A DNA stretch of 27,164 bases, from positions 1 to 27,164 of IMG/VR virus record IMGVR_UViG_3300006754_000126. One strand, written 5' to 3'. Origin of the DNA: a virus. Below the pieces are notes generated by a model, which saw nothing but the letters and a program-made list of their open reading frames with translations, was not told where the DNA came from and did not search any database. The translations under genes and the position numbers were made by a program. Below, in pieces: positions 14,393-21,650 of this stretch (position 1 is its first letter; the number at the start of each line of letters is the position of its first letter).

Positions 14393-14413
14393 AACCTATG
14401 TTTAATTCTCCTT

Positions 14414-14458
14414 GGGCTTGAAGGTTCAGTCCTTATTCAGTTCGCTACTGACAAGCCC
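14414..14458 (+). ncRNA. tRNA-like element 0 (divergent, in leader)
   Basis: A 7-bp acceptor-like stem GGGCTTG (14414-14420) / CAAGCCC (14452-14458) encloses AAGG-TTCAGT-CCTT (14421-14434, a D-arm-like hairpin) and TCAG-TTCGCTA-CTGA (14437-14451), a T-arm-like hairpin whose loop begins TTCG but lacks the A at the sixth conserved position. It has no anticodon arm. It stands where the five clearer elements stand: just before a small hairpin and a ribosome binding site. I treat it as a diverged or ancestral member; TCAGT at 14426-14430 offers an alternative pairing with ACTGA. Confidence 0.55.
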
Positions 14459-14461
14459 ACA

Positions 14462-14477
14462 ACGACAATTTTGTCGT
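14462..14477 (+). promoter_or_regulatory. 5' hairpin 0 upstream of first gene
   Basis: ACGAC (14462-14466) pairs with GTCGT (14473-14477); the inner A-T can add a sixth pair. The loop AATTTT resembles the AATTAA loops of later copies. It is followed by the A/C-rich CAACACACAACAGGAG and the start at 14500. Confidence 0.7.
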
Positions 14478-14499: not shown

Positions 14500-14820
14500 A
14501 TGATTTTAGCACAACAACTCGGAAAAATAGGGGATGAAAATGCTGAACATATTGAAGTAGTCCTATCCAATGGAGATCGTGTTTGGATTTATGATGATAA
14601 TGATGGATATGGCTCTATTGAACTTATAAGATACGACGATGCAGAAAAGTCACGAGTGACTTCCTCTACAAAAAGAGACAGCGTCCTTAGTAGAAAAAAG
14701 AAATTCAATAACACGATGTTCAAAAGTCGTACGATTGAAATAAGTTCTAAATGGGATCATGTGGAAAAAACAAACAAACGTACAGTAGTGCATTTGAAAC
14801 AGTTTTATCCACGACAATAA
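14500..14820 (+). CDS. Hypothetical protein, first gene of rightward operon
   Basis: A 106-aa protein starting MILAQQLGKIGDENAEHIEV after AGGAG at a good distance. The N-terminal half looks like a small beta domain (VVLSNGDRVWIYDDNDGYGS, then IELIRYDDAE). The C-terminal half is basic and Ser/Lys-rich (SSTKRDSVLSRKKKFNNTMF). I recognise no family. Its stop codon TAA (14818-14820) shares its last base with the first base of tRNA-like element 1. It begins a row of small accessory genes that would be the first made from the rightward promoter, a place where phages keep genes acting against host functions. Confidence 0.75.
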   Translation: MILAQQLGKIGDENAEHIEVVLSNGDRVWIYDDNDGYGSIELIRYDDAEKSRVTSSTKRDSVLSRKKKFNNTMFKSRTIEISSKWDHVEKTNKRTVVHLKQFYPRQ

Positions 14821-14864
14821 ACCTGAATGGTTCAAGAGGGTGGTTCGATTCCACCCTCAGGTTC
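14820..14864 (+). ncRNA. tRNA-like element 1 (no anticodon arm)
   Basis: Acceptor-like stem AACCTGA (14820-14826) / TCAGGTT (14857-14863), linker ATGGTTCAAGA (14827-14837), T-stem GGGTGG (14838-14843) / CCACCC (14851-14856), T-loop TTCGATT (14844-14850), and unpaired C at 14864. Acceptor and T-stem would stack as 13 continuous pairs. There is no anticodon or variable arm and no encoded CCA. The first base is the last base of the preceding stop codon. No U-run follows, so it is not a simple terminator. Confidence 0.88.
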
Positions 14865-14865
14865 A

Positions 14866-14881
14866 ATGGCAACTTTGCCAT
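14866..14881 (+). promoter_or_regulatory. 5' hairpin 1
   Basis: ATGGCA (14866-14871), loop ACTT, TGCCAT (14876-14881). It begins 1 nt after the unpaired C of element 1 and is followed by AACACAACACGGAGGAATT before the ATG at 14901. If the element is cut at its 3' side, this hairpin would sit at the new mRNA 5' end. Confidence 0.8.
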
Positions 14882-14900
14882 AACACAACACGGAGGAATT

Positions 14901-15122
14901 ATGAACATAAAAGATTGGAAGAAAAAAATGAATAATGCCAATCTCAATCAATGTGATGAAGTATTAGATAAAATCTCTAAAGCTAATGCTGAAAGTGATT
15001 CGGAGTTTATTTCAGTTGAGGCTAATCTTAGATACTCAGACCTTCAGGGCTGGGTTAAGGATAGAAAAAACTACATCCATTTTATGTCTGATTTACTTGG
15101 ATGGAAAGGCGGTATTAAATAA
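14901..15122 (+). CDS. Hypothetical protein, 73 aa
   Basis: A 73-aa protein beginning MNIKDWKKKMNNANLNQCDE. The frame is open further upstream to 14751, but that part overlaps the previous gene and element 1; CGGAGGAATT directly before the ATG at 14901 decides the start. The sequence is helical, charged and Trp-containing (LQGWVKDRKNYIHFMSDLLG at residues ~48-67), with no recognised motif. Its TAA stop (15120-15122) again shares its last base with the next tRNA-like element. Possibly a small inhibitor or regulator, but there is no direct evidence. Confidence 0.78.
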   Translation: MNIKDWKKKMNNANLNQCDEVLDKISKANAESDSEFISVEANLRYSDLQGWVKDRKNYIHFMSDLLGWKGGIK

Positions 15123-15166
15123 ACCTGAATGGTTCAAGTGGGGAGTTCGATTCTCCCCACAGGTTC
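15122..15166 (+). ncRNA. tRNA-like element 2
   Basis: AACCTGA (15122-15128) / ACAGGTT (15159-15165), with 6 pairs and one A-A at the inner end; linker ATGGTTCAAGT (15129-15139); T-stem GGGGAG (15140-15145) / CTCCCC (15153-15158); loop TTCGATT (15146-15152); unpaired C at 15166. The linker and acceptor 5' strand equal element 1 but the T-stem differs with paired changes. GT at 15138-15139 can pair with AC at 15159-15160 to lengthen the T-stem. Confidence 0.88.
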
Positions 15167-15184
15167 TACGACAATTAAGTCGTA
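15167..15184 (+). promoter_or_regulatory. 5' hairpin 2
   Basis: TACGAC (15167-15172), loop AATTAA, GTCGTA (15179-15184). It starts directly after the unpaired C of element 2 and is followed by ACACAAACACATGGAG, the ribosome binding region for the ArdC-like gene. Confidence 0.82.
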
Positions 15185-15206
15185 ACACAAACACATGGAG
15201 TTAAAC

Positions 15207-16184
15207 ATGAAAAAAGAGCAATTTGATAAATTGGTTAAGCCAGTTTTAAACCAACTTGATAAAGGCATTATTCCTTGGGATAAACCTTGGGAATGTGAAT
15301 TTGAAGGTGGTGAATTGAGTTTTGGTGTTCAGCGTTCAGCGAGTACCAGCAAATTGTACAGTGGTTGGAATAGCATTGTTCTTCAGTGTATCGCTGACGA
15401 ACAAGGACATACTAACCGATTTTGGGCTACGTATTTACAAGCTCAGAAATTAGGTGCTCAGGTCAATAAAGGTGAAAAGGGAGCTACGGTTTTCTTTTGG
15501 AAAAAATCTACTTTTATAGTAGGTGAAAAAGACTGCACAAGTTGTCAAGGTCAGCCAGTTTATAAAGGCAAATCTTGTTCCAACTGTGAACCAACAAAAA
15601 AGTCCAGTTGGATCATAAAAACTTATACAGTTTTTAATTTTGATCAGTGCACGTTTGCTGAAGAGATTCCAGCGAAATTCTTACCTAAGCCTAAGCCTAA
15701 AAAGAAGGTCAAGCCGACTGATAAACGTAAAACTATCAAGAGGGCTGAAGACTTAGTTAAAAAGTATGCTGAGACGTTAGCTGGTGGACTTCGTCATGGT
15801 GGTAGCAGAGCATTTTATGTTCCTACAGCAGACCGAGTTCAATTACCTGAGCGTGATCAATTCAAATCAGATTCTTACTACTATAGAGTAGCTTTTCACG
15901 AGCTCACTCATTCAACTGGTCATAAGTCAAGACTCGATAGATTCAAAGACTTTAAAGATCATCGATTTGGTAGTGTAGAATACTCAAAAGAAGAATTAGT
16001 TGCAGAGCTTGGAGCTTGTGGACTGTCTTCTTACTTAAACATAGACCCAAAAGTAGAGCGTAAAAATTCTATATCTTATCTTCAGAGCTGGTCAAAAGCA
16101 CTAAAAGATAAGCCGAAGGAATTTATTTATGCATCTCAACAGGCTTTCAGAGGTGTGAATCACATCTTGAAAGTTGGGTCATAA
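15207..16184 (+). CDS. ArdC-like antirestriction protein with zinc ribbon
   Basis: A 325-aa protein. Residues 1-100 match the N-terminal ssDNA-binding domain of ArdC-type proteins (GIIPWDKPW, YSGWNSIVL, FWATYLQAQKLG, VNKGEKGATVFFWKK, later TYTVFNFDQC). Residues 205-325 are the zincin-like metallopeptidase domain: HELTH at 231-235 and ELVAELGA at 263-270 with the likely third ligand Glu267. Family knowledge: ArdC protects incoming DNA from host restriction. An unusual insertion at 110-127 (CTSC...CSNC) splits the N-domain and looks like a zinc ribbon. GGAG at 15197 favours the ATG at 15207 over 15195. tRNA-like elements flank the gene on both sides. Confidence 0.9.
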   Translation: MKKEQFDKLVKPVLNQLDKGIIPWDKPWECEFEGGELSFGVQRSASTSKLYSGWNSIVLQCIADEQGHTNRFWATYLQAQKLGAQVNKGEKGATVFFWKKSTFIVGEKDCTSCQGQPVYKGKSCSNCEPTKKSSWIIKTYTVFNFDQCTFAEEIPAKFLPKPKPKKKVKPTDKRKTIKRAEDLVKKYAETLAGGLRHGGSRAFYVPTADRVQLPERDQFKSDSYYYRVAFHELTHSTGHKSRLDRFKDFKDHRFGSVEYSKEELVAELGACGLSSYLNIDPKVERKNSISYLQSWSKALKDKPKEFIYASQQAFRGVNHILKVGS

Positions 16185-16187
16185 TGT

Positions 16188-16232
16188 AACTCAGTATGGT
16201 ACTTGGGCTGGTTCGATTCCAGCCCTGAGTTC
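16188..16232 (+). ncRNA. tRNA-like element 3
   Basis: AACTCAG (16188-16194) / CTGAGTT (16225-16231), a perfect 7-bp stem; linker TATGGTACTTG (16195-16205), whose TGGTA equals the usual tRNA D-loop sequence; T-stem GGCTGG (16206-16211) / CCAGCC (16219-16224); loop TTCGATT (16212-16218); unpaired C at 16232. It begins 3 nt after the ArdC-like stop. Both stems differ from elements 1 and 2 on both strands while keeping pairing. Confidence 0.9.
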
Positions 16233-16233
16233 T

Positions 16234-16248
16234 GTGACACAAAGTCAC
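16234..16248 (+). promoter_or_regulatory. 5' hairpin 3
   Basis: GTGAC (16234-16238), loop ACAAA, GTCAC (16244-16248). It is the shortest stem of the set (5 bp). It starts 1 nt after the unpaired C of element 3. A 31-nt unpaired leader ending AGGAGGTAAATC leads to the ATG at 16280. Confidence 0.72.
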
Positions 16249-16279
16249 TAACCCTAACCTTAAACATAGGAGGTAAATC

Positions 16280-16552
16280 ATGTACGATTTACAGACGTTA
16301 AAAGTTAAAAACCGTCCGCCTCAGGAAGTAGTTCTTGATGACTTTACAGCATCAATGATTGCTGATGGCTGTTGGGATTTAGCTGGAGTAAAAGTCTCTG
16401 AATTGGGTATTGATAAGGCTGAGAAAATATATCATAAAGCCTACCAGCACCTGATAGATACTGATCTCTGTTGGCAACTTCAGGGACGTATTGGACGAGA
16501 GGCTGTACACTTGATCAATCTTGGAGTATGTCATGCTAATACAAAAAAGTAA
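16280..16552 (+). CDS. Hypothetical protein, 90 aa
   Basis: A 90-aa protein starting MYDLQTLKVKNRPPQEVVLD after a strong AGGAGG. It is mostly helical (ASMIADGCWDLAGVKVSELG, then AEKIYHKAYQHLIDTDLCWQ), with three Cys and several Trp/His, no recognised domain and no membrane segment. Its 3' end overlaps the start of the histone-fold gene (16533) by 20 nt. Unlike the other junctions here, this one has no tRNA-like element, so the two proteins are probably made together by coupled translation and may act together. Confidence 0.75.
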   Translation: MYDLQTLKVKNRPPQEVVLDDFTASMIADGCWDLAGVKVSELGIDKAEKIYHKAYQHLIDTDLCWQLQGRIGREAVHLINLGVCHANTKK

Positions 16553-16883
16553 AATAAAGCAGTTGATAAACTCTAAGGGTCTGTCAGTTAGTGCCATATC
16601 TTATGATTCCATAGACCGACTGGTCTCTGAGGTCATAGATAAAGTGTGTTTAAACACTACTAACGACGGCATGAAAACCGTTATGCCACAGCATTGCCAC
16701 TTAAATCAGGCGGTAGCTAAAGCATCTGAAAGCGTTAAGCTGGAGAATGTAGAGCCTGAGATTAAGAAGATGTCTCAATATCTTCAAAAGTGGATCGATC
16801 ACAGGTTTGACGGTCATGTTACCCTTCACATTTCCCTGACCCGTTTTGCGAAAGGAGATGTACGAAGGTCTGACATAGGATAG
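16533..16883 (+). CDS. Probable histone-fold protein
   Basis: A 116-aa protein. Residues 4-55 (SKIKQLINSKGLSVSAISYD, then RLVSEVIDKVC, then GMKTVMPQHC) follow the histone fold: a short first helix with K-x-K-x-L, loop, long central helix beginning near SYDSIDRL, and a final loop with the KTVMP motif usual in bacterial and archaeal histones and related DUF1931-like proteins. The remaining 60 residues are a helical and beta tail without known match. Such proteins bind DNA as dimers; a role in compacting or masking phage or host DNA is inferred. ATG 16533, after GGAG, is preferred to TTG 16521. The stop TAG lies inside tRNA-like element 4. Confidence 0.65.
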   Translation: MLIQKSKIKQLINSKGLSVSAISYDSIDRLVSEVIDKVCLNTTNDGMKTVMPQHCHLNQAVAKASESVKLENVEPEIKKMSQYLQKWIDHRFDGHVTLHISLTRFAKGDVRRSDIG

Positions 16884-16921
16884 TTTGGAATTTGGGGAGG
16901 TTCGATTCCTCCCCTATCCTC
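16877..16921 (+). ncRNA. tRNA-like element 4 (contains a stop codon)
   Basis: AGGATAG (16877-16883) / CTATCCT (16914-16920), perfect 7 bp; linker TTTGGAATTTG (16884-16894); T-stem GGGAGG (16895-16900) / CCTCCC (16908-16913); loop TTCGATT (16901-16907); unpaired C at 16921. The stop codon TAG of the histone-fold gene is bases 5-7 of the acceptor strand, so the final codons of that gene and the RNA element share sequence. Confidence 0.9.
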
Positions 16922-16939
16922 AAGGACAATTAAGTCCTT
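16922..16939 (+). promoter_or_regulatory. 5' hairpin 4
   Basis: AAGGAC (16922-16927), loop AATTAA, GTCCTT (16934-16939), directly after the unpaired C of element 4. The leader ACACAAACAGGAGTAATT that follows is identical to the one after hairpin 5. Confidence 0.85.
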
Positions 16940-16957
16940 ACACAAACAGGAGTAATT

Positions 16958-17158
16958 ATGAAAACCAAAAGAAAAGCTAAATGGGAAAAGGTATTAACCT
17001 TAACCGAATTAAAGCATTTACGTGAAAACACAGATGGGACATTACGTGGTGCAAAAGCAACTTTTCAATTTCAAAAGAAACTAAGAGATAAAACGGGAAG
17101 TTTAGAGCCTTGTTGGGATTGTAAATTTATCGCAGATAAGTTAGGTGAGCCTACGTAA
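16958..17158 (+). CDS. Small CxxC protein, 66 aa
   Basis: A 66-aa basic protein starting MKTKRKAKWEKVLTLTELKH after ACAGGAGTAATT. Charged helical body (LRENTDGTLRGAKATFQFQK) and one CWDC pair at residues ~52-55 near the C-terminus that could take part in metal binding or a disulphide; with only two Cys, a full zinc site would need a partner. No family recognised. It is a single-gene unit framed by tRNA-like modules on both sides. Confidence 0.75.
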   Translation: MKTKRKAKWEKVLTLTELKHLRENTDGTLRGAKATFQFQKKLRDKTGSLEPCWDCKFIADKLGEPT

Positions 17159-17173
17159 ATGATTATAAAAAAA

Positions 17174-17219
17174 AGGGTAGCTTGGTAGCTTGGGAAGGTT
17201 CAATTCTTTCCCTACCCTC
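17174..17219 (+). ncRNA. tRNA-like element 5 (TTCAATT loop)
   Basis: AGGGTAG (17174-17180) / CTACCCT (17212-17218), perfect 7 bp; linker CTTGGTAGCTTG (17181-17192, 12 nt) with a tRNA-like TTGGTA; T-stem GGAAGG (17193-17198) / CTTTCC (17206-17211) with one G-U; loop TTCAATT (17199-17205), the other common tRNA T-loop form; unpaired C at 17219. AGC and GCT at 17179-17190 could form a 3-bp D-stem-like hairpin around TTGGTA. It lies 15 nt after the preceding stop, behind an A-run. Confidence 0.9.
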
Positions 17220-17237
17220 AAAGGCAATTAAGCCTTT
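17220..17237 (+). promoter_or_regulatory. 5' hairpin 5
   Basis: AAAGGC (17220-17225), loop AATTAA, GCCTTT (17232-17237). It begins right after the unpaired C of element 5. The stem differs from hairpin 4 by paired changes, while the loop and following leader are identical. Confidence 0.85.
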
Positions 17238-17255
17238 ACACAAACAGGAGTAATT

Positions 17256-17486
17256 ATGGAAAATGTAAAACACTTCCAAGTAAAAGAAAAGACTATCAAA
17301 GGAATCACAGGATTTCAAATCCAATGGTTTCAAGAAAGTTATTTTACTAATAATGGGTTCAAGGCTGATTGGCACGATGTTGAGGACGGCTGGTTCGTCG
17401 ATAGAGACAAAGCCTGTGATCGAGCAATGGACTTAGAGTATGAAAGTGAGGAACTAAGGTATGAAAGTGAGGGACTAAATGGATAG
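17256..17486 (+). CDS. Hypothetical protein, 76 aa, with C-terminal repeat
   Basis: A 76-aa acidic protein starting MENVKHFQVKEKTIKGITGF. It has a beta-like N-terminal half rich in aromatic residues (FQIQWFQESYFTNNGFKADW, then DGWFVDRDKACD) and ends in a duplicated motif YESEELR / YESEGLN. The DNA has two 21-nt copies of TATGAAAGTGAGGRACTAADR (17439-17459 and 17460-17480). The second copy supplies the GAGGGAC ribosome binding site of the next gene, whose ATG overlaps this stop by 8 nt. No family recognised. Confidence 0.75.
   Translation: MENVKHFQVKEKTIKGITGFQIQWFQESYFTNNGFKADWHDVEDGWFVDRDKACDRAMDLEYESEELRYESEGLNG
17439..17480 (+). repeat. 21-nt direct repeat, two copies
   Basis: TATGAAAGTGAGGAACTAAGG is followed at once by TATGAAAGTGAGGGACTAAAT (17460-17480). 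The in-frame copies extend the C-terminus of the 76-aa protein, and the second serves as ribosome binding region for the gene at 17479. A recent tandem duplication is the simplest explanation. Confidence 0.85.
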
Positions 17487-17910
17487 AGGTGACTATATCA
17501 CAAGCTGGTTAGCAACTGAAGATGATGATGATGTTTACCCTTGGAAACAAGCAATACTGATCACATATGGTGAAGGTGGATATCACAAAACAGAGTGGAT
17601 GTTAAGACGAGAAGATATTATTGAACGCAATAAAGTCTCAGGAATAACGGAAGAAGATAGAATAAAGGCGGAAGGTTTGGCGATTCAATTATCAGTTAAA
17701 GAAGAAACTGAATGGGCAAAAGCGAAAAAGGAATACGACCAGCATGAGTCTTTGAAGTTTATACATTCCATTTTAAGTGGGATAAGAAGAAAACGACGAA
17801 GAACCATTAATGATGCTGAGTGGGATAAAGCAATAAAGTCTTTGAATCGTATTCAAAAAGACCTTGAAGAAAGAGAGGTGATAAATGCCGATGATAAAGC
17901 CACAGGCTAA
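17479..17910 (+). CDS. Hypothetical protein, 143 aa
   Basis: A 143-aa protein starting MDRGDYITSWLATEDDDDVY. The N-terminal half has an acidic patch and aromatic residues (YPWKQAILITYGEGGYHKTE). The C-terminal half is a charged helix likely to form a coiled coil (EETEWAKAKKEYDQHESLKF, then IRRKRRRTINDAEWDKAIKS). No catalytic motif is apparent. It overlaps the genes on both sides (8 nt and 26 nt), and neither junction has a tRNA-like element. This suggests the last three genes of the operon stay on one mRNA and are translated together. Confidence 0.75.
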   Translation: MDRGDYITSWLATEDDDDVYPWKQAILITYGEGGYHKTEWMLRREDIIERNKVSGITEEDRIKAEGLAIQLSVKEETEWAKAKKEYDQHESLKFIHSILSGIRRKRRRTINDAEWDKAIKSLNRIQKDLEEREVINADDKATG

Positions 17911-18082
17911 GACGATTCGGGCGGTGGTGACTAAGCCATTAGAAGATATGTTAAAAGTACGTGCAGTTCAAATGGGAACTAGCAAGGAAAAGCTGATTGG
18001 ACACATTCTAAAAGAGTGGTGCAGTCGAGCAAACACACAATCTGATGAGTTTAATCAAGCCCGAAGTGAATTACATAGGTAA
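17885..18082 (+). CDS. Ribbon-helix-helix-like DNA-binding protein
   Basis: A 65-aa protein. Residues 8-46 (KTIRAVVTKPLEDMLKVRAV, then MGTSKEKLIGHILKEWC) have the order of a ribbon-helix-helix domain of the Arc/MetJ/CopG type: a short strand with alternating residues, then a helix, a turn at MGTS, and a second helix. Such proteins bind DNA as dimers and usually repress their own operon. It is the last gene before the terminator at 18087, so it could feed back on the divergent control region at 14223-14271. The start codon is at 17885 or 17891 (GAGAGGTGATAA precedes). Targets unknown. Confidence 0.7.
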   Translation: MPMIKPQAKTIRAVVTKPLEDMLKVRAVQMGTSKEKLIGHILKEWCSRANTQSDEFNQARSELHR

Positions 18083-18086
18083 ACAG

Positions 18087-18124
18087 AAAGCCCCCTTAGG
18101 AGAAATCCTTTGGGGGCTTTTTTT
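18087..18124. terminator. Strong bidirectional intrinsic terminator
   Basis: AAAGCCCCC (18087-18095) pairs with GGGGGCTTT (18112-18120), enclosing AGGA-GAAA-TCCT with a GNRA loop; a run of seven T follows to 18124. It ends the rightward accessory operon 4 nt after the stop at 18082. Read leftwards it is followed by CTTTCTGTTT, so it may also stop the converging replication operon. Confidence 0.93.
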
Positions 18125-18188
18125 ATTTATACGCCAGTCAACCTAAACGCCAATCCAAGTCAATCAAGGATAATCCACATTCTGTCTA

Positions 18189-21194: not shown

Positions 21195-21650
21195 CTAACC
21201 CTGTTCTTCTACATCCCAGCGAGTAGATTTTTTTGTGATCCATTCTTTAGGCATAAGATAAGCTCTCTTTTCTACCGTATCCCCATTACCAACAAATCTT
21301 TTTTGTTCAATTCCTGATGTTAATATTAGGTTCTTAATGGTATCAGGGTCAATCCAATAATAATGATTCCCATCATTAAAGACCCAAAAGTCGGCAGTTG
21401 TAGTTGTGATTCCACTGGGCTTTCCGTAATGAAATGTTTCAACAACGAAGTTGCCAGTAAAATTGGATTTTCTATCGGTCTTTAATTCGACCTTAGATTC
21501 AATGTCAGGTATATAAAAATCAAACTGTTTAAACGACCCTTCTATCTTGACAGCGTGAGGGTACGTTGTTTTTAGTCTCTTTAAAAATCTTATTTCTTCT
21601 TCTATCCCTAGGGCTAACTGAGACTCAAAATTGGGCTTGTTCTCTTGCAT
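21195..21650 (-). CDS. PD-(D/E)XK endonuclease-like protein
   Basis: A 151-aa protein. Residues ~43-80 hold the nuclease core: FDFYIPDIESKVELKTDRKS, with Asp and E-L-K as likely metal ligands, then TGNFVVETFHYGKPSGI. The phrase (G)NFVVE...GKPSGI followed by TTTADFWVF is a signature I associate with small phage endonucleases or Holliday-junction-resolvase-like enzymes of the PD-(D/E)XK superfamily. The rest is helical with YWIDPDTIKNLILTSG. It lies among recombination genes, suggesting branch or restriction-like cleavage. It overlaps a 43-aa basic gene by 26 nt. Confidence 0.8.
   Translation of the reverse strand: MQENKPNFESQLALGIEEEIRFLKRLKTTYPHAVKIEGSFKQFDFYIPDIESKVELKTDRKSNFTGNFVVETFHYGKPSGITTTTADFWVFNDGNHYYWIDPDTIKNLILTSGIEQKRFVGNGDTVEKRAYLMPKEWITKKSTRWDVEEQG

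Follow-up and report, generated by a model that had tools for sequence, protein, structure and literature searches.

Minimal tRNA mimics between phage genes as candidate RNase P processing sites in early operons

A 27,164-base virus record from IMG/VR (IMGVR_UViG_3300006754_000126), referred to here in its full length as the window, carries five short tRNA-like elements between the small genes of one operon. An earlier note, made from the sequence alone, had described them as acceptor and T-arm structures without an anticodon arm and had interpreted them as a tRNA-punctuation system that splits a polycistronic mRNA. The existence of the five elements as structures is close to certain, and the punctuation interpretation is supported, although cleavage by RNase P or RNase Z is something that we infer from structure and position. 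We consider it likely that the elements act in cis as sites at which RNase P, and perhaps RNase Z as well, divides early polycistronic phage mRNAs. With slightly more reserve, we favor the broader idea that they represent a widespread, unnamed class of minimal tRNA mimics, punctuating early mRNAs in phages of at least Actinomycetota and Bacteroidota and in uncultured marine phages and recruiting host RNase P, with or without RNase Z, in most lineages together with 5′ hairpins.

Anatomy of the five elements

All five elements were recovered at the positions previously given, on the plus strand. Element 1 (14820-14864) has the acceptor AACCTGA/TCAGGTT, a GG in its linker, and the T-arm GGGTGG-TTCGATT-CCACCC. 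The acceptor and T-arm are AACCTG/CAGGTT and TGGGGAG-TTCGATT-CTCCCCA in element 2 (15122-15166), AACTCAG/CTGAGTT and GGCTGG-TTCGATT-CCAGCC in element 3 (16188-16232), AGGATAG/CTATCCT and GGGAGG-TTCGATT-CCTCCC in element 4 (16877-16921), and AGGGTAG/CTACCCT and GGAAGG-TTCAATT-CTTTCC in element 5 (17174-17219). As described earlier, 13 pairs are stacked in every copy. The proposed division into a 7-bp acceptor and a 6-bp T-stem held for elements 1, 3, 4, and 5 and failed for element 2, which has a 6-bp acceptor and a 7-bp T-stem; several copies leave the position of the break uncertain by one pair. The 7-nt T-loops (TTCGATT in four elements, TTCAATT in element 5) and the linkers (11 nt in elements 1 to 4 and 12 nt in element 5) were also as reported, and only this linker lies between acceptor and T-arm in all five, leaving no anticodon arm. 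Every linker contains a GG at a nearly constant place, a feature that the earlier note had missed. It corresponds to the D-loop half of the tRNA elbow; in tRNA, such D-loop bases dock on the T-loop. A C directly follows the stack in all five copies.

The elements sit at gene ends. Base 1 of element 1 is the last base of the TAA of gene 1, and base 1 of element 2 is likewise shared with the TAA of gene 2. Relative to base 1, the upstream stop codon ends at +1, +1, −3, +7, and −15 for elements 1 to 5, and it thus either shares bases with the element or lies no more than 15 nt away. One element had been claimed for each nonoverlapping junction, and this proved accurate: all five nonoverlapping junctions have an element, and none of the three overlapping ones does.

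A strict descriptor (a 7-bp acceptor, a T-stem of at least 4 bp, and the T-loop) found four of the five elements, element 2 failing on the 7-bp acceptor only. Its sole additional match in the window was a weak, AT-rich 4+7 structure at 21462-21503, and dinucleotide shuffles of the whole window gave a mean of 0.07 matches (maximum, 2). A covariance model built only from elements of Mycobacterium phages and Bacteroidota prophages recovered four of the five, with E values from 6e-5 to 4e-4 in a search of 253 kb; this model had no other match in the window and none in control loci that lack arrays.

Stem sequences change while pairing and stack length are kept

We sampled candidates with a pattern blind to the acceptor, in which only the core of the linker, the T-loop, and the two pairs that close this loop are fixed. 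At least 11 stacked pairs were present in 71 of 101 distinct candidates, compared with a mean of 4.0 (maximum, 10) after 3′ halves were swapped among candidates. This is a cleaner test of pairing than the count over fetched loci given below, since those loci had been gathered in part for element-like features. The earlier note had also claimed compensatory change in the stems and had named related phages as the place where that claim could fail. It did not: aligning 38 elements without gaps showed 198 pair cells changed on both sides. The covariation score was 0.982, compared with 0.166 ± 0.020, and was reached by none of 500 shuffles; it collapsed once partners were slid by one column. This alignment illustrates the covariation rather than proving it, because its members were selected by pairing. 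The GG occupied identical columns in all 38.

Where the acceptor ends and the T-stem begins varies (5+7, 6+6, 6+7, 7+5, 7+6, and 8+5), and the sum is nearly constant within a clade. The total stack is 13 in 34 of 36 elements from the window and its relatives (the window clade), 12 in 40 of 51 Bacteroidota elements, and 11 to 12 in mycobacteriophages. A stack of 11 to 13 bp is the length that RNase P and RNase Z measure, supporting a fit to an enzyme that uses the tRNA ruler. Across the class, the T-loop, the GG, the pairing, and the total stack length are retained, as usually is a C soon after the stack; stem sequences and the acceptor/T break are free, the linker can vary in length to some extent, and a middle arm may be present or absent. 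Because variants that do bear a middle arm keep the acceptor, the T-arm, and the GG while the arm itself varies freely, only the features read by RNase P and RNase Z appear to be conserved.

The C adjoins the stack in 34 of 36 window-clade elements, and most Bacteroidota and mycobacteriophage elements have A-C there. Apart from the L081/L112 prophage, nearly all lineages have a single conserved C at or beside the place of C74. This C may base-pair with the RNA of RNase P or have a part in CCA addition.

The class in unrelated phages

A terminase search returned 22 close relatives of the window phage (79 to 100% identity), and many of the corresponding loci have the same arrays with different stems; the relatives that carry elements are marine. 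We also searched IMG/VR viral contigs with two patterns, one combining T-loop and leader and the other linker and T-loop, the second giving at least 120 matches. The class was present in phages unrelated to the window, namely, Mu-like prophages of Bacteroidota, a prophage in an isolate genome, represented by loci L081, L112, and L113, and isolated actinophages. The actinophage carriers are the Mycobacterium phages Cuke, Fowlmouth, MrMiyagi, and Indlulamithi, relatives of Papyrus/Send513, and prophages of M. abscessus; Mycobacterium phage Conspiracy has one element, and Gordonia phage VanLee has 15 within 12 kb. In 2.58 Mb of fetched loci, a set gathered in part for element-like features, a search with no upper length limit found 13, 84, 103, 50, 1, and 1 distinct elements with 10, 11, 12, 13, 14, and 16 stacked pairs, respectively. 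Against these roughly 250 elements, three shuffles of the same sequence gave 3 in total, or about 1 per 2.6 Mb.

Some copies carry an additional middle arm, up to a nearly complete tRNA-like RNA (L257 6562-6656 and 9985-10049; L112 17102-17048, minus strand; L115 12606-12680). They occupy the same kind of junction, retain the acceptor, the GG, and the T-arm, and usually have a downstream hairpin too. The arm-bearing variants form a graded series from tRNA-like RNAs to minimal elements.

The elements are largely restricted to phages. The same 20-base pattern occurred in 79 stretches of IMG/VR and in 13 stretches of 257 Gb of bacterial and archaeal genomes; these 13 were mostly from Bacteroidota, and nine had a recognizable element. 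A model search of eight whole bacterial genomes gave eight matches at an E value of ≤0.01, spread over five genomes. A search of the whole phylum found a match in only 2 of 296 Bacteroidota genomes, and the element is therefore not a common cellular feature. Nor did the model pick up real tRNA genes, since in locus L116, where ARAGORN calls three, it gave a single partial match of 17 bits besides the element of that locus.

No Rfam family accounts for the elements. None of the window elements matched Rfam 15 at the gathering score; the only match at that score was tRNA (RF00005; 30.7 bits), on the arm-bearing RNA at L115 12606-12680, and a scan at an E-value threshold returned only chance matches and T-arm fragments of transfer-messenger RNA (tmRNA). 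The elements share with canonical tRNA the coaxial acceptor/T-arm stack of 11 to 13 bp and a TTCRA T-loop (TTCRANY type), but the cloverleaf with anticodon and D arms is absent from all five window elements, and we rejected this assignment. ARAGORN misses the elements; its one call in the window is a false tRNA-Phe at 15095-15166, which joins the 3′ half of element 2 to the last part of gene 2. Annotated genomes may contain elements masked by false calls of this kind. The elements are unannotated in the named phage records that we examined, and, in agreement with the earlier note, which knew of no described phage equivalent, we found none in the open-access full-text literature (subscription journals and most preprints lay outside the search).

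Placement in isolated phages

The rule seen in the window generalizes, because long and short junctions in three annotated phages agree with it. In the array regions of VanLee, Papyrus, and Cuke, all 40 elements are on the coding strand. Of the VanLee junctions, 15 of the 16 that are 50 nt or longer and none of the 13 shorter ones have an element, and the sixteenth long junction has a weaker model match. The corresponding counts are 12 of 13 and 1 of 6 in Papyrus and 9 of 15 and 2 of 16 in Cuke, where several of the remaining long junctions hold versions with an extra middle arm or an altered T-loop. No element was found in the 28-kb structural part of Cuke. The commonest distance from stop codon to element is 8 to 9 nt in Cuke and Papyrus and is more varied in VanLee.

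A hairpin downstream of the elements

All five window elements are followed by a hairpin of 5 to 6 bp that begins 1 to 2 nt past the stack and that the earlier note had missed. These hairpins are ATGGCA-ACTT-TGCCAT directly 3′ of element 1 (14866-14881), TACGAC-AATTAA-GTCGTA after element 2 (15167-15184), GTGAC-ACAAA-GTCAC after element 3 (16234-16248), AAGGAC-AATTAA-GTCCTT after element 4 (16922-16939), and AAAGGC-AATTAA-GCCTTT after element 5 (17220-17237), all on the plus strand. Behind each come, in order, an ACACAAA-like leader, a Shine-Dalgarno sequence, and ATG. A downstream hairpin is present in all 36 window-clade elements, with 2.3 expected from shuffling, and in 34 of 40 mycobacteriophage elements, with 4.7 expected; in the latter, it lies farther from the stack than in the window clade.

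A proposed mechanism and the points against it

In the mechanism that we consider probable as a whole, the acceptor and T-stem would stack into a rod of about 12 to 13 bp, and the T-loop would contact the linker GG to form a tRNA elbow, in the way that C56 and pseudouridine 55 of tRNA dock on G19 and G18. Host RNase P would clamp this elbow, measure the rod, and cut at the 5′ end of the rod, just after or inside the upstream stop codon. The 3′ side would then probably be trimmed by RNase Z or exonucleases, or be left joined to the downstream mRNA, which in most lineages would start at or near the small hairpin, shielding its 5′ end from decay and leaving the ribosome-binding site open. The outcome would be single-gene mRNAs of independent stability from one early operon.

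Published work on RNase P is consistent with this scheme. That an acceptor plus T-arm is a minimal RNase P substrate, as the earlier note had stated, is documented in vitro: the E. coli enzyme correctly cuts model hairpins made of acceptor, T-stem, and T-loop (PMC11143913), and the elements match this hairpin architecture at the ruler length. RNase P works as a ruler that starts at the tRNA elbow and spans a fixed distance, with the T-loop needed and the D-loop dispensable (PMC4919913), and intergenic regions of polycistronic mRNAs are among its cleavage sites (PMC2777011). The RNase Z step is more weakly inferred than the RNase P step, although it is compatible with the missing CCA and with a hairpin 1 to 2 nt downstream.

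Several observations weigh against this scheme. In the minimum-free-energy folds of elements 1 and 2, the acceptor gives way to a 4-bp AACC/GGTT hairpin that is favored by about 1.3 kcal/mol; elbow docking, which lies outside the fold calculation, could reverse this preference. A 3′ RCCA is not encoded; as a rule there is a single conserved C, which follows either the stack itself or one unpaired base. A 3′ CCA aids bacterial RNase P, although not every bacterium depends on it. Instead of exactly 12 bp, the stack measures 13 bp in the window clade and 11 bp in many actinophages. The downstream hairpin is essentially missing from Bacteroidota elements (12 of 51, with 7.6 expected by chance), and a stabilizing role for it would therefore not be universal; this absence, together with its greater distance in mycobacteriophages, weakens the RNase Z step. 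Finally, some stop codons of the window clade fall within the acceptor, as before element 4, where the stop ends at +7; a 5′ cut there would yield a nonstop mRNA unless it was blocked during translation, an arrangement for which plain punctuation has no need. Either a ribosome translating up to the stop holds off folding and cutting until it leaves, or 5′ cutting is not the main event.

Alternative explanations

The loss of part of some stop codons upon 5′ cleavage points to an alternative in which cutting, by RNase Z or a different nuclease, is confined to the downstream side and the element remains as a stable tRNA-like 3′ end, capping the upstream mRNA against 3′ exonucleases. Plant viral RNAs have tRNA-like 3′ ends. 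An element that abuts or overlaps the stop codon would form a natural 3′ end of the upstream mRNA, and the hairpin 1 to 2 nt past the stack in the window clade also speaks for this alternative. However, the 8- to 9-nt spacer between stop codon and element that is frequent in actinophages is what 5′ cleavage needs, and mere stability requires no T-loop/GG elbow at a fixed distance. We regard this alternative as unlikely.

The elements might instead be cassette boundaries, that is, homology islands for the exchange of small genes, like the PeSL of T4-type phages or att sites, with RNA folding incidental. Exchange at the boundaries does occur: among L005, L007, L017, and the window, the AGGATAG... 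and AGGGTAG... elements are kept and the gene between them is replaced (families F8, F10, and F15). Because genes between conserved elements are swapped among relatives, the elements also mark cassette borders. DNA homology, however, would conserve stem sequence, as expected of PeSL- or attC-type sites; here, only the GG and T-loop region is constant, the stems differ between neighboring copies, and the pairing alone is kept. The elements in the three annotated phages are, moreover, always on the coding strand and almost never in short junctions. The covariation thus disfavors recombination as the main function, which seems decidedly improbable, and gene exchange at element boundaries is a secondary effect that a punctuated operon makes harmless to expression.

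Phages meet defenses that cut tRNAs, and the window operon encodes an ArdC anti-restriction protein, which could suggest that freed tRNA mimics act in trans as decoys that titrate tRNA-targeting defense enzymes. We find this very hard to credit: without an anticodon arm, the elements offer no decoy for anticodon nucleases, they occur one per junction rather than in clusters, and their acceptor sequences are diverse. A role as transcription attenuators or terminators, which intergenic GC-rich hairpins might suggest, is still less plausible, since no U-tract lies behind the elements, the single convincing intrinsic terminator of the operon stands at its end, and a terminator has no need of a T-loop and GG. 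Least probable of all is that the elements are tRNA gene debris, left by the decay of phage tRNA genes or as tRNA fragments at att sites. Phage tRNAs are common, and the graded series starts from the nearly complete tRNA-like RNA of L115, but selection is evident from the compensatory evolution of dozens of copies, their regular spacing, and their common anatomy, and an att fragment would occur once and lack a 5′ acceptor strand to match. The missing anticodon arm, the arrays, and the compensatory stems led us to reject canonical or decayed tRNA genes as well as att fragments; tRNA debris is insufficient as an explanation, although it may describe the evolutionary origin.

Relation to known systems

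What is new here is the family of minimal tRNA mimics; tRNA punctuation as a principle is already known. In mitochondria, as in these phages, tRNA-shaped processing signals lie between polycistronic genes and beside stop codons. Mitochondrial punctuation uses real, aminoacylatable tRNAs, whereas the phage elements, at which cleavage is proposed, are reduced mimics without an anticodon arm, one per junction, in DNA phages of bacteria. In T7-like phages, early mRNA is split at intergenic hairpins by host RNase III. The idea of splitting by a host enzyme is shared, but the enzyme and the structure differ, and our elements lack a long duplex. To our knowledge, the intergenic RNase P sites of E. 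coli are not a repeated family of recognizable tRNA mimics. These sites share with our proposal the cutter and the position between operon genes (Li and Altman 2003, cited in PMC2777011). The AT1 precursor (acceptor, T-stem, and T-loop of E. coli tRNA-Phe) has the same reduced architecture as the elements (PMC11143913); AT1 is an artificial in vitro substrate whose 3′ end pairs with RNase P RNA, whereas the elements are natural and repeated, with a GG linker and no encoded CCA. The tRNA-like RNAs of MALAT1 and MEN-beta, which are RNase P substrates (PMC4919913), provide a precedent for a tRNA-like element in a non-tRNA transcript but, unlike the phage elements, are eukaryotic and single copy and belong to long noncoding RNAs. 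SAS and ESAS repeats of Cluster K mycobacteriophages also precede phage start codons (PMC3203893). SAS is 13 bp long and conserved in sequence, and ESAS is an inverted repeat of 17 bp that is likewise conserved in sequence, whereas the elements vary in stem sequence; our model R1 had no match in TM4 (24 to 53 kb) or Adephagia (30 to 60 kb).

If the proposal is correct, it would place mitochondria-like gene punctuation in viruses that infect bacteria. Punctuation by tRNA-like signals would then exist beyond organelles, having arisen as the tRNA was reduced to its ruler part, and the minimal RNase P substrate defined in vitro would have natural counterparts. The proposal would also suggest how phages obtain gene-by-gene expression from long early operons of tiny genes. 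Carriers include isolated phages propagated on M. smegmatis mc2 155 and G. rubripertincta, both standard laboratory hosts, which makes the proposal directly testable. The elements could provide compact, variable processing sites for synthetic operons, and the covariance model could annotate intergenic regions of many "dark" phage genomes.

The operon, its leader, and further observations

The window, which also has portal, large-terminase, and integrase genes, carries the operon at 14500-18082 on the plus strand; it comprises nine small genes and ends in an intrinsic terminator. Gene 1 (14500-14820; 106 residues; weak match to phrog_27531) and gene 2 (14901-15122; 73 residues) are of unknown function. 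Gene 3 (15207-16184; 325 residues) encodes the ArdC-like anti-restriction protein, with the Pfam domains ArdcN and MPTase-PolyVal and a match to phrog_7245. Gene 4 (16280-16552; 90 residues) overlaps gene 5 (16533-16883; 116 residues) at a junction without an element, and the TAG stop of gene 5 lies within the acceptor strand of element 4. Gene 6 (16958-17158; 66 residues) is followed by genes 7 to 9 (17256-18082, as 17256-17486, 17479-17910, and 17885-18082), which overlap one another and have no elements. The terminator spans 18093-18125 (stem-loop 18093-18116 plus T-tail), and the same stem-loop gives weak matches to His_leader and Phe_leader. Promoter-like sites within the operon were no more frequent than in shuffles.

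The operon leader contains a further structure, element 0 (14413-14459, plus strand), a three-way junction made of an 8-bp acceptor-like stem (TGGGCTTG/CAAGCCCA), a hairpin (AAGG..CCTT), and a 5-bp arm (TCAGT-TCGCT-ACTGA). Its fold has a z-score of −4.79, and it is retained in L007, L009, L010, and L011, where its stems vary with compensatory changes. Element 0 is probably an arm-bearing, degenerate relative of the other elements, with 8+5, or 13, stacked pairs. It is followed by a hairpin of the same kind as theirs (ACGACA-ATTT-TGTCGT; 14462-14477, plus strand). The leader region as a whole (14413-14477) could hold an arm-bearing, ancestor-like element or a separate regulator.

Among the pattern matches, those in Klebsiella phage Miami and in the tRNA cluster of Pseudomonas phage 254 were rejected as not of this kind, and a Clostridiales match (L261) proved to be the 3′ end of a tmRNA. 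Comparison with named phages gave no match for L081 by megablast or for L074 by blastn. The M. abscessus prophages related to the element-carrying locus L209 include prophiBWHA-1 and prophiT49-3. In two T7-like cyanophages, Synechococcus phage S-RIP1 (L277, about 660-730) and Prochlorococcus phage P-GSP1 (L272, about 690-740), a tRNA-like hairpin, arm-bearing in S-RIP1, lies upstream of the major head protein gene. Locus L212 has three nearly identical elements in tandem, about 110 nt apart, and at L212 1726-1988 and L209 982-1127, both on the minus strand, GC-rich repeats (GGCAAGGC/GGCTCGGC type) come after neighboring elements.

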